A stretch of 64,000 bases of DNA from Streptomyces sp. NBC_01353. Its GTDB lineage: Bacteria; Actinomycetota; Actinomycetes; Streptomycetales; Streptomycetaceae. This document shows positions 24,053 through 32,510 of this stretch, in pieces. A model generated the notes under the pieces. It did no database searches. It saw nothing but the letters and a program-made list of their open reading frames with translations, and was not told where the DNA came from. The translations under genes were made by a program, and so were the position numbers. The first letter of the stretch is position 1. Each line of letters opens with the position of its first letter. The stretch spans positions 2,046,001 to 2,110,000 of the forward strand of contig NZ_CP108352.1 of assembly GCF_036237275.1 (NCBI RefSeq). Reading direction: 5' to 3'.

Positions 24053-24748
24053 GTGAGCAGCAACGAAACCGATGTCCGCGATGAGAAGCCGCAATTCGTC
24101 CTCCCGCTGGTGGTGCGGATCGAGAAGGCCGAGCCCCCGGCCCGTACCGACGCCCTGGAGACGGCCGCTCGCGCCGTCCTGACGATCCTCGCCGACGAGC
24201 GCGCGCACGGCGACGGCGAGTGGGCGCAGGCCATGACCGACTGGCAGGACGCCCGGATCCGCAAGGTCGTGCGCCGGGCGCGCGGCGCGGAGTGGCGGCG
24301 CGCGCAGGCGCTCCCGGGGATCACGATGACGGGTGAGGCCGCGGAGGTACGGGTGTTCCCACCGGTCCCGCTGGACGGCTGGCCCAAGGAGCTGGCCAAG
24401 CTCCAGGTGTCGGGCACCGACCTGGAGGACCCGGCCGCGCCCGGCGCGCCGAGGCCCGGGGCGGCGCTGCTGTGGCTCAACCCGGATCTGGACATGTCCG
24501 CGGGCAAGGCGATGGCCCAGGCGGGGCACGGGGCGCAGCTGGCGTGGTGGGAGATGGCGGAGGCGGACCGCAAGGCGTGGCGCGAGGCCGGTTTCCCGCT
24601 GGCCGTGCGGACGGCCGATCCGGCGCGCTGGGCGGAGCTGACGACGGGCGGTCTGCCGGTGGTGCGGGACGCCGGATTCACGGAGATCGCGCCCGGTTCG
24701 TGCACGGTCGTGTCCGAATTCCCCGTGCTCGTTTCGAACGACGACTGA
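24053..24748 (+). CDS. peptidyl-tRNA hydrolase, Pth2-type, with N-terminal extension
   Basis: The C-terminal half (about 120-231) matches the archaeal/eukaryotic-type Pth2 fold: LLWLNPDLDMSAGKAMAQAG, HGAQLAWWEMAEADRKAW and LPVVRDAGFTEIAPGSCTVV. Pth2 releases tRNA from peptidyl-tRNA. The first 115 residues are extra; they contain a short strand (VLPLVVRIEKAEPPART) and helices (ALETAARAVLTILADE, WAQAMTDWQDARIRKVVRRA). Streptomycetes also have a canonical Pth1, so this is probably a second or specialised enzyme. It starts with GTG 24053, divergent from AIM24. Confidence 0.8.
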   Translation: MSSNETDVRDEKPQFVLPLVVRIEKAEPPARTDALETAARAVLTILADERAHGDGEWAQAMTDWQDARIRKVVRRARGAEWRRAQALPGITMTGEAAEVRVFPPVPLDGWPKELAKLQVSGTDLEDPAAPGAPRPGAALLWLNPDLDMSAGKAMAQAGHGAQLAWWEMAEADRKAWREAGFPLAVRTADPARWAELTTGGLPVVRDAGFTEIAPGSCTVVSEFPVLVSNDD

Positions 24749-24859
24749 ACACGCCCGTCCCGTAGTACGTATCTCCCGATACCGCCAAGTGGGTTGAACG
24801 GAAGCGTCCTTACCGGTTCAGTCTGCGGTGACCGAAATTTCGAACGTACGGGAGACACC

Positions 24860-25615
24860 TTGTCGCTACGCGTCAACGGGACGGCCCTCATCATCGCGGC
24901 GCTCGTCGCCACGGTCGGCGCGCTCGCCTTCCCCGTCTGGTCCTACGCCGACCGCTCCGGAACCGGCCAGGCGAATCTGAACGCGGCGAGCGTGGCCACC
25001 CAGTGGGGGCCGCTGTCCGCCACGGACCGGGACTTCCTGGTCAAGGTGAGGCTGGCCGGTCTCTGGGAGCTCCCGGCCGGCCAGCAGGCCATCGAACGTG
25101 CCCCGAGCCGGGCGATGGTGGAGTGCGGCGACCACCTCGTCGTCGGCCACACGGACCTGGACCGACGGGCCCGGGACGTGGCGGCCAAGCTCGGCGTCGA
25201 GCTGCCGAACCAGCCGACCGAGCAGCAGCAGGGGTGGCTTCGGGAGCTGACGGCGTCGCGCGGGGAGGAGTACGAGCGGAAGTTCGCGAACCTGCTGCGC
25301 AACGCGCACGGCAAGGTGTTCGCGCTGATCGCGGAGGTCCGGCACACCACGCGCAACGCGCTGATACGGCAGCTGGCGAGCGACGCCAACCAGACGGTGC
25401 TCGACCACATCACCATGCTGGAGGCGACCGGGATGGTCGATCACGACGCGCTGGCGAACGAGGCGGCGGGCCGGAAGACGTCCCCGCCGACCGGTCCGCC
25501 GGTCGTGCCGTCGCCGGCGGTGCCCTCGCCCGTGGTGCCCTCGGGGACGGACCAGTCGTTCACGTCGCGCCCGGCGCCGGAGGCGGGGATCGTGACGCCG
25601 CACTCGATGCCGTAG
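24860..25615 (+). CDS. secreted DUF4142 family protein
   Basis: I place the start at TTG 24860, five bases after GGAGA, because it gives LSLRVNGTALIIAALVATVG then ALAFPVWSYA, a signal or anchor segment. The DUF4142 part follows (about 45-200): WGPLSATDRDFLVKVRLAGL, ELPAGQQAIERAPSRAMVEC, LGVELPNQPTEQQQGWLREL and LRNAHGKVFALIAEVRHTTR. This all-alpha ferritin-like family is often extracytoplasmic and of unknown role. The last 45 residues are Pro/Ser-rich. The perfect palindrome CGAAATTTCG lies at 24833-24842, just upstream. Confidence 0.72.
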   Translation: MSLRVNGTALIIAALVATVGALAFPVWSYADRSGTGQANLNAASVATQWGPLSATDRDFLVKVRLAGLWELPAGQQAIERAPSRAMVECGDHLVVGHTDLDRRARDVAAKLGVELPNQPTEQQQGWLRELTASRGEEYERKFANLLRNAHGKVFALIAEVRHTTRNALIRQLASDANQTVLDHITMLEATGMVDHDALANEAAGRKTSPPTGPPVVPSPAVPSPVVPSGTDQSFTSRPAPEAGIVTPHSMP

Positions 25616-25711: not shown

Positions 25712-27484
25712 ATGAAGGAACGCAGCACGGCACTCGGCACGACGCCCGGCACAGGACTCGACTCCGCGCTCCGCACGGCGCTCGGGATCGGCATCGGCTG
25801 GCGGCCGGAGATCGCGGACGCGGTGGAGGCGCTGCCCGGCATCGACTGGGTGGAGGTCGTCGCGGAGAACGTGTGCGCCGGCCACCTCCCCGAGTCGCTG
25901 AAGCGGCTTCGGGCGCGCGGGGTCACGGTCGTGCCGCACGGGGTCTCGCTGGGCCTCGGCGGCGCGGACCGGCCGGACGCGGGGCGGCTGGCGGAGCTGG
26001 CGGCGAAGGCGGAGGCGCTGGGGGCTCCGCTGGTGACGGAGCACATCGCCTTCGTACGGGCCGGGGGCGCGCTGACCGCGACGCCGGTCCTGGAGGCGGG
26101 GCACCTGCTGCCGGTGCCGCGGACCTGGGACGCGCTGGACGTGCTGTGCGAGAACGTCCGGATCGCGCAGGACGCGCTGCCGGTGCCGCTGGCGCTGGAG
26201 AACATCGCGGCGCTGATCTCGTGGCCTGGCGAGGAGCTGACGGAGGGCCAGTTCCTGGCGGAGCTGGTGGAGCGTACGGGGGTACGGCTCCTGATCGACG
26301 TGGCGAACCTCCACACCAACCACGTCAACCGCGGCGAGTCCCCGTCGAAGGCCCTCGCCGAACTCCCGGTCGAGGCGATCGCGTACGTCCATGTCGCGGG
26401 CGGCCTCGAACGCGACGGCGTCTGGCACGACACCCACGCCCACCCGGTCCCCGAGCCGGTCCTCGACATCCTCTCGGACCTGGCGTCGAGGACCTCCCCA
26501 CCGGGCGTCCTGCTGGAACGGGACGACCACTTCCCGCCCACGGAGGAACTGGCGTCGGAACTGACGGCGATCCGGGAACGGTTGACCGGGGCGGTCGGCA
26601 GGGCGGGGGCGGCGTCGGCAGGGACCGGGGCGATGCCCGCCAGGGCCGGAACGGCTTCAGCCGACGCCGGAACGGCTTCAGCCGAGGCCAGGACGACGTC
26701 CGCCGGGGGCGGAACGGCTTCCGTCAACGCCCGGACGACGTCCCCTGAGGCCGGGGCGGGGTCCCCCGCAGGCCGGGCGGCGGTCGCCGCGGGCAGCGTG
26801 CCGGCGGTCGTCGCGGGCAGCGTGTCGGCGGGCTCCGGGATCGAGCGCCCGCTGCTCATAGGCGCGGGTGCGCGGGTCTCCGGCGGCCCGATGCCGCAGC
26901 CGCAGACAACGGGCGCGCACGAGCACGGCGATGCCGTCGCCGAGCCGCTCGGCACCCCGGCGCAGCCGACCGAGGGCGGCGTCCGGGGACTCGCCCCGGG
27001 TTCACCCCACGCAGCGGGCCTGCCCGGGGCGGAAAGCAGCCAGCTCCCGTCCCGGCCGGTCGAGGCTCGTCCGGAGCGGGCTCGTGGGCGGGTCGCCCTG
27101 GCGCAGGCTGCGCTGTTGTCCGCGCTCGTCGCGGGGACTCCCGCGCCCGAGGGGTTCGACACGCGGCGGCTCGGTGTGCAGAGTCGGGCGCTCGTCGGCA
27201 AGCGGGCCGAGGTGATCGCCAAGATCGCGCCCGAGCTGCCCGAGATCCTCGGGGACGGCTACCGCCGCGCGTTCTTCGCGTACGCCAGAACCCGCCCCAT
27301 GTCCGGCGGCTACCGCCGCGACGCTCTCGCCTTCGTCGAGAGCCTGCTCGTCGCCGGCCGCCCCGAGGACCCCGACGCGCGGCGCCGGCTCACCCGGTGG
27401 TGGCAGGACCGCACCGACACGCGTCCGCCCAACCGGGCGACCCGGCTGATCCGCGCCGCCCGCGCCACACTCGTACGAAAGTGA
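25712..27484 (+). CDS. DUF692/MNIO multinuclear iron oxidase with repeat linker and C-terminal domain
   Basis: The 590-residue protein has three parts. The DUF692 TIM barrel (about 20-290) is of the family that includes MbnB, TglH and ChrH, iron enzymes that oxidise cysteines in peptides. All expected metal and site residues are visible: H76 (PHGVSL), E110/H111 (TEHIAF), E163 (LENIA), D196, N199, H201 (DVANLHTNH), H227 (YVHVAGG), D240 and H242 (DTHAHP) and E269 (LLERDD). A low-complexity linker (about 300-450) includes six heptad repeats. A C-terminal helical domain of about 125 residues ends the protein. ATG 25712 follows GGAGGGGG. The next gene starts 7 bases after the stop, so the pair is coupled. 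Confidence 0.88.
26645..26770. repeat. six 21-bp tandem repeats in the MNIO linker
   Basis: Six consecutive 21-base units starting at 26645 encode heptads of the form [35 protein letters not shown] and A-G-A-G-S-P-A. The first two differ by one base. They occupy residues 312-353, between the oxidase barrel and the C-terminal domain, and are likely to vary in number between strains. Confidence 0.8.
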
Positions 27485-27491
27485 GGGCCGC

Positions 27492-28553
27492 ATGAACCTC
27501 CTCGCCCTGATCGTCTGGGCCGCCGTCCTCGTCACCCTCGGCATGACGATCGCCCACGTCCGCGCCGCCCGTGCCGACCACGGCGGCTCCGTCCACGACC
27601 TCGCCGAGGCCGCCTTCCTCCTCGGCGGCCCGCCCCGCGTCGTGGACACGGCCCTGGCGACCCTGCACGCCGAGGGACTGATCGGGGTCGGCGGTCCCGG
27701 CCTCGTCGTCGTGCTCCGCCCCGACCTGCGGGCCCGGGACCATGTCGGCCGTGCCGTCCTGGAGCAGCTCGCGGCCGCCCCCAGCGGCGCCCTGCACGAG
27801 CTGCGCCTCGCGGTGATGCGCGGCCCCGCCGTCCAGGAGATCGGCGACGGCCTGGCCGCGCGCGGCATGATGGTGGCCCCCGAGGACCGGCTGACCGGCA
27901 AGCGGTGGTGCCTCGCCCTGGGCTTCGGCTCGTTCGGCCTGCTCGTCGTCTCGATCGCCCTGTCCGTGGGCGTCGCACGCGAACCCTTCGAGGTGCCGTT
28001 CTTCTTCAAGGTGGTGCCCGTCCTCTTCGCGGGCATCATCGTCGCCCTCGTCTGCGGCGCGTACAACGCCGGGCGGACGACCCTGGCCGGCCGCCGCGCG
28101 GCCGCCGAGTACCGGGCGGCCCATGTCTACTTCCCCGACGCCGCGCACCAGGTCGGGCTGCGCGGACTGCGCGCCGTACCCGACACGGAGCTGCGGACCC
28201 AGCTGATCGCGGCGGCCCGGATGCCCAGGCCGTCCATGACGCACACCTCCTCCAACACCGCCACCACGGACGCGTTCACGCTCGCGGCCCTGCACTGGTG
28301 CGCGGGCACTCCCGGCAGTCCGGGCGGCTGCGGCGGCGCTTCCGGAGGAACGGGAGGCGGGGTCGACAGCGGTGTCGGCGGCGGGGGCTGTTCCGCGAGC
28401 GCCTGCTCGAGTGGGGGCGGAGGCGGTGGCAGCGGTTCCGGCTGCGGCAGCTCCGGCGGTGGCGGATCCAGCTGCGGAAGCTCCAGCAGTGGCGGCAGCT
28501 CCTGCTCCAGCAGCAGCAGTAGTTCCAGCTGCGGAGGCGGTTCCAGCGGCTGA
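27492..28553 (+). CDS. TIGR04222 domain membrane protein with Cys/Gly/Ser tail
   Basis: The 353-residue protein has an N-terminal membrane segment (LLALIVWAAVLVTLGMTIAH). A cytoplasmic region contains LAEAAFLLGGPPRVVDTALA and ALHELRLAVMRGPAVQEIGD. Two further segments follow at about 140-195 (LALGFGSFGLLVVSIALSVG; VVPVLFAGIIVALVCGAY), then a helical stretch (YFPDAAHQVGLRGLRAVPD). From residue 268 to the end lies an 86-residue tail of Gly, Ser and eight Cys (270, 280, 300, 305, 318, 328, 338, 347). This matches the TIGR04222 architecture known from streptomycetes, of unknown function. It follows the MNIO oxidase gene by 7 bases, so its cysteines are the obvious candidate substrate. Confidence 0.85.
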   Translation: MNLLALIVWAAVLVTLGMTIAHVRAARADHGGSVHDLAEAAFLLGGPPRVVDTALATLHAEGLIGVGGPGLVVVLRPDLRARDHVGRAVLEQLAAAPSGALHELRLAVMRGPAVQEIGDGLAARGMMVAPEDRLTGKRWCLALGFGSFGLLVVSIALSVGVAREPFEVPFFFKVVPVLFAGIIVALVCGAYNAGRTTLAGRRAAAEYRAAHVYFPDAAHQVGLRGLRAVPDTELRTQLIAAARMPRPSMTHTSSNTATTDAFTLAALHWCAGTPGSPGGCGGASGGTGGGVDSGVGGGGCSASACSSGGGGGGSGSGCGSSGGGGSSCGSSSSGGSSCSSSSSSSSCGGGSSG

Positions 28554-30282: not shown

Positions 30283-30996
30283 TCAGGCCAGGCCCGCCAC
30301 CAGGTCCGCCACGGAGCGGCGGCGGCCGGTGTAGAACGGGACCTCCTCGCGGACGTGCATCCGCGCCTCGGACGCACGCAGGTGGCGCATGAGGTCGACG
30401 ATGCGGTGCAGCTCGTCGGCCTCGAAGGCGAGGATCCACTCGTAGTCGCCGAGCGAGAACGAGGCGACCGTGTTGGCGCGGACGTCGGGGTAGCCGCGAG
30501 CCATCTTGCCGTGGTCCGCGAGCATCCGGCGGCGGTCCTCGTCCGGCAGCAGGTACCAGTCGTAGGAGCGCACGAAGGGGTAGACGCTCACGTAGTCGCG
30601 GGGCGTCTCGTCGGCCAGGAAGGCCGGGATGTGCGACTTGTTGAACTCGGCGGGGCGGTGCAGCGCCATGTTCGACCAGACCGGCTCGAGGGCGCGGCCC
30701 AGCTTGGTGCGGCGGAAGAGGTTGTACGCGTCCTGGAGCTCGTCGCTCGTCTCGGCGTGCCACCAGATCATGACATCGGCGTCGGCGCGCAGACCGGAGA
30801 GGTCGTACGTGCCGCGGATGGTGATGTCCTTGGCGGCGAGCTGGTCGAACAGCTCCTGGACCTCGTCGGCGTAGCCGGCGCGGTCCTCGGGCAGGTTGTC
30901 GCGCAGCTTGAACACAGACCACAGGGTGTAGCGGATGACCTCGTTGAGGTCCTTCGCCTTCTTACCGGCGTTCGGGATCTTTTCGGGCGCACTCAT
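30283..30996 (-). CDS. hemQ: coproheme decarboxylase HemQ (chlorite dismutase family)
   Basis: HemQ removes two carboxyl groups from iron-coproporphyrin to give heme b, the last step of the coproporphyrin-dependent pathway of actinobacteria and firmicutes. The 237-residue protein has the double ferredoxin-like fold with [20 protein letters not shown], the catalytic tyrosine Y139 in [15 protein letters not shown] and the proximal heme ligand H162 in [13 protein letters not shown]. It lacks the arginine pattern of true chlorite dismutases. The ATG lies 17 bases downstream of hemG, so the two form an operon. Confidence 0.93.
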
Positions 30997-31013
30997 ACGC
31001 CTATTCTCGCCCG

Positions 31014-32510
31014 TCACGGACAGTGCCCTGCACCAGGGTGGGTGGTTTCCGACGTGGCGATGATCTCGTCCGCGATCTCGTCGGCCGCGCGGTGGCCCGA
31101 GGCGATACAGGCGGGGATGCCGACACCCTCGTACACGGCCCCGGCGAGGCGCAGTCCGGGCAGCTCGGCGACGGCCTCGCGGATGCGGGCGACGCGGGCG
31201 AGGTGGCCGACGGGGTACTGCGGGAGGCCGTCGGTCCAGCGGGTGACGGTGGTCGCGACGGGGCGGGCGGTCAGACCGGCGGCGGCGCCGAGGTCCTTGA
31301 GCGAGGCCTCGACGAGGTCGGCGTCGTCGCGGAGGATCTGCTCCTCCTCGCCGTAGCGGCCGACGGAGGTGCGCAGCACGAAGAGGTCGGGGGCGGCGTC
31401 GGAGACCCACTGCCACTTCTGGCTGGAGAAGGTGGACGCCTTGATGGTGTGCCCGTCGACGGGGGGCACGAGGAACCCGGACCCGGGCAGCCCCTGGACG
31501 TCGGAGCGGCGGAAGGCGAGGGTGACGAGGGCCATGGAGGCGTACTCGACGGCTCCGAGCTCGCCGGCGGCCCGGGGCGCCTCGTGGCCGAGCAGCTCGG
31601 CGGCGGCCCAGGCGGGGGTGGCGAGGACGACCGCGTCGGCGACGATGCTGCGCCCCCCGGCGACGACGCGCCACCGGGTGGCGGCCGGGGGAACCGCGCC
31701 CTCCGCAGCGGCCGGGAAGCCCGGCGACGCCGGCATCCGGCGGAGTTCCGTCACTGGGGCGTGCGTCAGGATCTCGCCGCCCGCCGCGTGGATCGCCGCG
31801 GCGACCGCGGTGGGCAGGGTGCCGATGCCCCCCTCGATGCCCATGAAGGCGGAGCCTCCGAGACCGGTGGCCGCGCCCGCCGTGTCCGACGGGGTCGCGG
31901 CGCCCGCCCGCTGGACGGTGTGGACGGCCTCGGTGAGCGTGGCGTGGGTACGGGCTGCGGCGAAGAGGGCGGGGACGGCGGCCCGCATCGAGATCCGGTA
32001 GGCGTCGCCCGCGTAGACCCCGCCGAGCAGCGGCTCGACCAGCCGGTCGACGACCTCGTGGCCCATCCGGTCGGCGACGTACGCGCCGATGGCGATGTCC
32101 TCGCCGATCTCGGCCGGGGGCAGTTGGCGGTCCCGCTCGACCCGGCGCACCCCCTCCTCGGAGAGGAGGTCGGCGAGGGCCGCGGCGTCGCCGGGGACGC
32201 CCATGACGTGCCCCTTGGGCATCGGGCGCAGCGTTCCGCGGCTCCACACGGACGCGGTGGTCGTGGCGGGCGGGCGGAGCCGGTCGCCGAGGCCGACGGT
32301 GCGGGCCAGCGCCACCGCCTCGGGGCGGCGGGCCAGCAGCGACTCGGCCCCGAGGTCGACGGGGGCGCCGGCGATCTCTCCGGCGAGCAGCTTGCCGCCG
32401 ACCCGGTCGCCTCCTTCGAGCAGCGTCACCCGTGCTCCGGCGGACAGCAGCCGGTGGGCGGCGGCGAGGCCGGCGATGCCGCCTCCGACTACGACAACGT
32501 GCGCGTTCAT
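31014..32510 (-). CDS. hemG: coproporphyrinogen III / protoporphyrinogen oxidase
   Basis: The 498-residue FAD enzyme oxidises coproporphyrinogen III to coproporphyrin III in actinobacteria (also called HemY or CgoX). It begins with the dinucleotide motif [19 protein letters not shown] and a second FAD contact [33 protein letters not shown] and [20 protein letters not shown] line the substrate cavity, and the end has [20 protein letters not shown]. It is followed directly by hemQ, which uses the product after iron insertion. The ferrochelatase gene is not in the window. A hairpin (CGTTCC 32529-32534, GGAACG 32541-32546) lies in the upstream divergent region. Confidence 0.93.

Follow-up and report, generated by a model that had tools for sequence, protein, structure and literature searches.

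The loci most similar to the one considered here were compiled by Antoine et al. 2025 (PMC12452194), whose accessible text reports more than 1000 Cys-containing proteins that lack a Sec signal and whose genes precede those of MNIOs, TIGR04222 proteins making up 40%, and proposes that MNIOs act on subsets of TIGR04222 by way of their Cys-rich C-terminal tails. Table 2 of that paper contains 13 loci in the order peptidyl-tRNA hydrolase (adjamnio-II), MNIO, TIGR04222, and the same text states that one third of TIGR04222 genomes have no MNIO. Besides that paper, a literature search for TIGR04222 listed one other, a 2016 Pseudonocardia genome paper in which the family is mentioned once. A related locus has now been analyzed in a window of 64,000 nucleotides from Streptomyces sp. 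NBC_01353 (contig NZ_CP108352.1, positions 2,046,001 to 2,110,000), in which an MNIO (DUF692) oxidase gene (590 aa, 25712..27484) is followed by a gene for a TIGR04222 membrane protein with a Cys/Gly/Ser tail (353 aa, 27492..28553). Coordinates refer to the window, and these two genes, their domains and the two neighbors upstream all lie on the + strand. Both the MNIO-TIGR04222 pairing and the idea of the tail as substrate are already published and are not new here; the additions of the present analysis are a fused partner, a predicted cytoplasmic topology and a clade of Streptomyces oxidases without the tail.

The locus shares with those of Antoine et al. both families, the Cys-rich Ser/Gly tail and the gene order with peptidyl-tRNA hydrolase, but its partner is fused. 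HvfB-HvfC (oxazolin) and BufB-BufC likewise combine an MNIO with a DUF2063-type partner and have several cysteines modified in their one substrate; that substrate is, however, a small peptide carrying a Sec signal, whereas the window's TIGR04222 protein, with its 353 residues and three predicted membrane helices, is not small like a bufferin precursor. MbnB-MbnC (methanobactin) also differs in having a small peptide precursor and a separate partner. Judging from the accessible text of PMC13419390 and PMC12452194, MovX and ChrH are similar as MNIOs with an extra domain and without a separate partner, but this domain is of the RRE/winged-helix type and not DUF2063-like in MovX, and a domain of unknown function in ChrH, and the substrates of both are peptides.

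The only MNIO of the 8.57 Mb genome is the window's, which is matched by PF05114 with 263 bits (E 3.2e-78; cut-off 25) over its catalytic domain (residues 25-289, 25784..26578). Its best NCBIfam model is MNIO_BufB with 180.8 bits, which misses the equivalog cut-off of 310, and other models also remain under theirs (HvfB 144.5 against 360, ApyH 108.8 against 400, ChrH 38.9 against 600 and MbnB 30.1 against 325 bits). As the best named model scores below its cut-off, the protein is an MNIO but reaches none of the named ones. The solved sequences nearest to it are 8hci/8hi7, 3bww and MbnB in 7dz9, 8hi7 being the TglH-TglI entry according to the accessible text of PMC12452194. All ten residues that the initial annotation had listed as iron ligands are present, and nine of them (H76, H111, E163, D196, N199, H227, D240, H242 and E269) do not vary in any of the 93 aligned MNIOs (the shorter MNIO of locus L238 was left out of this count and of the tree); the tenth, at position 201, is probably no ligand, because it differs among the relatives (H, Y, W or R). 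The nine invariant residues are those known to bind iron in the family.

Behind the catalytic domain, an Ala/Gly/Ser/Thr-rich, Cys-free linker of low complexity (26579..27064), in which family searches gave no match, leads to a helical C-terminal domain (27065..27481) that looks like a DUF2063/MbnC-like MNIO partner (PME-type 2 like) in one chain with the MNIO. A fold related to that of known partners (NGO1945, TglI and MbnC) is tentatively supported by prediction, MbnC ranking first in Foldseek and in a second alignment. Profile comparison with DUF2063 proteins of bufferin loci gave an E of 5.8e-4 for the largest alignment and of 0.011 and 0.0046 for two others; two control profiles gave 0.51 and 0.26. 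DUF2063 itself (Pfam PF09836, PME-type 1) is matched by the C-terminal domains of 3 of 17 relatives (best E 2.8e-4); the window's own domain has no match to it at E up to 1, and its sole Pfam match, GCS2, lies under the cut-off (E 0.0058). Across 94 MNIOs, the partner is fused in 62, a separate neighboring gene in 27 and neither in 5, i.e., 27 of 32 unfused MNIOs have a homolog of the fused domain encoded directly alongside as a separate protein. Such a partner, fused or separate, is present for 78 of the 79 MNIOs with a TIGR04222 protein in the fetched locus, whereas in the accessible text of PMC12452194 the partner gene is apparently missing from many MNIO-TIGR04222 loci. The earlier remark that no partner such as MbnC is visible has therefore to be corrected, as a partner-like domain is fused to the oxidase and a separate gene adjoins most unfused relatives. 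HvfB and HvfC occur naturally as two proteins, and their engineered fusion was highly active while the mixed separate proteins were not (PMC13419390, accessible text).

The second gene starts 7 bases downstream, as initially annotated (the oxidase frame ends at 27484 and the next ATG is at 27492), and its product scores 127.1 bits with the NCBIfam model TIGR04222 (cut-off 43), which covers residues 8-230. The topology is supported by prediction: in the AlphaFold2 model (mean pLDDT 77.9), transmembrane helices are predicted at residues 2-26 (27495..27569), 130-161 (27879..27974) and 170-193 (27999..28070), with a winged-helix-like domain between the first two (residues 37-123, 27600..27860) that is predicted to be cytoplasmic from the charge pattern. 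Two of the 52 relatives show a match to HTH_20 in this region (E 4.9e-5 at best), and the Pfam family most touched by TIGR04222 members is DUF2207_C (11 of 52, best E 0.0046); the likeness to DUF2207 membrane proteins is sub-threshold only, and the window's protein itself has no Pfam match. We know of no MNIO link of DUF2207 membrane proteins. A collection scan gave one named relative of the membrane protein, from Streptomyces sp. Je 1-79, with 69% identity over its best-matching segment; 120 sampled genomes carry the label of the same genus, which is taken as Streptomyces on these grounds.

The proposed substrate is the tail, which is disordered in the model (residues 268-353, 28293..28550) and has a WCA motif near its start. 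A recount agrees with the initial description, giving 86 residues with 36 Gly, 29 Ser and 8 Cys (positions 270, 280, 300, 305, 318, 328, 338 and 347), the last four being 10, 10 and 9 residues apart. Among 52 aligned relatives preselected for at least three tail Cys, columns 318, 328 and 347 hold Cys in 47, 49 and 49, so that these cysteines are not due to chance. The genome's second TIGR04222 protein (L002), whose gene is distant from the single MNIO gene, ends in a Cys-free Gly tail. Within the genus, WC(A/G) opens the Cys-rich tail at all 27 loci with a fused partner and at none of the 7 unfused ones (L220 was dropped from this fusion count), a link that is not significant, with only about three changes each; the motif is absent from the six fused loci of other genera.

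The charge pattern also suggests on which side of the membrane the tail lies. Modelled with the N-terminus outside, the density of Lys+Arg in the 52 relatives is 0.193 in the inside flanks versus 0.022 in the outside ones, and the former exceeds the latter in 50 of them; by the positive-inside rule, the tail would thus be cytoplasmic and the N-terminus outside. If so, the tail would be within the enzyme's compartment, and export would be unneeded. The loci of Antoine et al. differ in this respect, since the low-complexity regions of TIGR04222 proteins were predicted there to be periplasmic (PMC12452194, accessible text).

On balance, our assessment leans slightly towards a single-chain MNIO-partner enzyme that oxidizes cysteines of the tail on the inner side of the membrane and thereby creates a tethered metal-binding tail. 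The locus would represent an actinobacterial MNIO-TIGR04222 module, in which the oxidase would be a natural single chain of MNIO barrel, flexible linker and DUF2063/MbnC-like partner domain, the last being in most studied MNIO systems a separate subunit required for activity and substrate binding. The three-helix protein would have its N-terminus outside and expose the winged-helix-like domain and disordered tail to the cytoplasm, alongside the enzyme, which would most likely oxidize several tail Cys by analogy with thiooxazole or oxazolone/thioamide groups. The product may be a tail that stays uncleaved and tethered to the membrane on its inner side and that probably binds copper. We infer the tail as substrate, and likewise its chemistry and its metal, from these comparisons. 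A fuller version, in which the one-chain enzyme modifies the cytoplasmic tail in place to form a tethered metal-binding organ, without leader, export or cleavage, and acts on another substrate in a sister clade without the tail, is proposed only tentatively.

At the level of sequence, the genes, their domain identities and the co-occurrence of the two families are established. Both families are found in 45 of 246 genomes class-wide, with MNIO only in 6, TIGR04222 only (over cut-off) in 19 and neither in 176; without Streptomyces (224 genomes), the numbers are 27, 4, 19 and 174. MNIO genes occur in 114 of 121 sampled Streptomyces genomes. Genome counts for TIGR04222 are lower bounds, with 21 (same-genus) and 11 (class-wide) candidates scored per genome. 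At least three tail Cys are present in 55 of 65 TIGR04222 proteins adjoining an MNIO (frames within 650 nt), versus 2 of 33 at MNIO loci but more than 650 nt away, 2 of 12 from genomes without a found MNIO and 12 of 25 from genomes with the MNIO elsewhere, two ORFs running off contigs being dropped. In G396, G406 and G492, which belong to one other genus, a Cys-tailed TIGR04222 protein and an MNIO with its partner are encoded at separate loci.

Several results weigh against a dedicated enzyme-tail pair. The class-wide tests ignore relatedness, and once it is accounted for, the link between tail and adjacency is not significant because of few independent contrasts (134 of 137 rows used, without the two off-contig ORFs and one short domain). 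No TIGR04222 match was found in 11 of the 114 Streptomyces genomes with MNIO, and the four of these that were rescored with up to 71 candidates again gave none. In addition, 60 same-genus MNIO loci, from the first 59 genomes with a match (G001-G063) out of the 114, comprise 33 with a Cys-tailed TIGR04222 protein, 23 with only a Cys-less, short-tailed one and 4 with none (contig ends cut some, including the tail-less L161, L164 and L178). Of the 27 tail-less MNIOs, 26 form one clade (support 99/92; 23 loci with only tail-less TIGR04222, 3 with none), and that of L170 stands separate. Metal-site residues are kept equally with and without the Cys tail, varying only at position 201, and the median MNIO dN/dS (from our own Nei-Gojobori script) is 0.121 in the tail-less clade (26 sequences, 325 pairs), which indicates purifying selection, and 0.218 in the 34 with the tail (557 pairs). 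Residues and dN/dS together show that the oxidase is maintained in the tail-less clade, and because it is kept although the tail is absent, it probably has another substrate there. The strongest objection to a closed pair is that in the majority of this clade the oxidase operates with no Cys-tailed TIGR04222 protein that we could find. Overall, the association expected in the initial annotation is real beyond this genome (45 of 246), but the refutation named there, many genomes having one gene and lacking the other, is borne out in part (11 of 114 genomes, 27 of 60 loci); the tail remains a plausible substrate, as already proposed in print, while an exclusive coupling of oxidase and tail is not confirmed.

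It is possible, though on the whole unlikely, that the main substrate of the MNIO is some other, unlinked peptide or protein and that the TIGR04222 protein is an anchor, sensor or metal-handling partner whose unmodified Cys tail binds metal. The well-supported clade of 26 argues for this, as does the finding that frames ending in a Cys/Gly/Ser tail (at least 4 Cys in the last 60 residues) occur at 0 of 27 tail-less loci versus 22 of 22 controls from the 33 tailed loci, in spite of the kept metal site and purifying selection. Moreover, a TIGR04222 search of the 27 genomes with tail-less loci (up to 71 candidates each) left 4 without any match, and among its matches, all of which were inspected, the unlinked copies have 0-2 tail Cys, except those of G009 (3) and G027 (4). 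On the other hand, 45 of 51 MNIO genomes class-wide also have TIGR04222, Cys-rich tails mostly adjoin an MNIO, and no alternative MNIO substrate was found.

An exported metal buffer like the bufferins, with the modified tail outside the membrane, would agree with the periplasmic prediction in the accessible text of PMC12452194; it is improbable here, as the charge pattern puts the tail inside in 50 of 52 relatives and the winged-helix-like domain shares the tail's side of the membrane. Even less credence is given to a functionless neighborhood, in which widespread Streptomyces genes simply stand beside the heme genes hemQ and hemY, the tail being a product of low-complexity drift: synteny does recur (PTH2, DUF4142, TAP hydrolase, hemY), but outside the genus the pair is found in reverse order (TIGR04222 first), the window neighbors searched for are absent there save one ABC-like frame in L241, and the Cys columns of the tail are conserved.

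The tail-less TIGR04222 paralog (38 in L149-L208, e.g., L155:5493-6296) has three near-invariant Cys of its own, present in 35, 35 and 37 of 38, which lie in hydrophobic stretches aligned with predicted membrane helices, two as CxxxC in the first and one in the last. The second of them is lost in the near-identical L260 and L261, from the two sampled genomes that have such a paralog and no MNIO. These cysteines are a possible intramembrane metal site, and the short paralog might act as a partner in metal handling or be a further substrate. L322 was considered as a tailed TIGR04222 protein and not counted (weak match, internal stop codon followed by 6 Cys, no Gly/Ser tail), and L323 was retrieved but left out of the analysis.

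Upstream of the oxidase, the window encodes a PTH2-domain, peptidyl-tRNA hydrolase-like protein (24053..24748; PF01981, E 1.1e-8), in keeping with the published adjamnio-II order, and a DUF4142 protein (24794..25615; PF13628, E 2.2e-18) whose true start may be further in; both are frequent MNIO neighbors. The order PTH2, DUF4142, MNIO, TIGR04222 is thus the published set plus an intervening DUF4142 gene. DUF4142 often precedes the MNIO at Cys-tailed loci such as the window's and follows it in the tail-less clade (L155, L207, L208 and others); it flanks the MNIO on each side in the tail-less L158, L161, L171 and L186, and L150 and L182 are exceptions to this placement. By eye, short conserved DNA in the MNIO-DUF4142 gap resembles promoter or regulator DNA of DUF4142 (L155, L194, L208, L160, L149, L186, L171 and L161). 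The genes hemQ and hemY (HemQ_actino, 364.8 bits; protoporphyrinogen oxidase) are located nearby at 30283-32510, and hemY-like frames are found downstream at many of the 60 same-genus loci (L149-L208). Tandem Cys-tailed TIGR04222 genes (7 and 8 tail Cys) follow an unfused MNIO with a separate partner in L181:3871-6327, and a bufferin-type MNIO (357-371 bits) adjoins a true DUF2063 gene in a few actinobacteria (L034, L035, L036 and L126; G099, G090, G031 and G526).

MNIOs have been characterized on peptides, and a membrane-protein substrate, if true, would carry their chemistry over to proteins retained by the cell. Because the fusion is natural, it provides a single-gene construct in a family where the weak binding of partners hampers practical work, and the tail-less clade supplies a ready comparison in the search for the true substrate, as well as the best lead to a second one. 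With an MNIO in 114 of 121 genomes, the enzyme would be close to a core function in the much-used genus Streptomyces.
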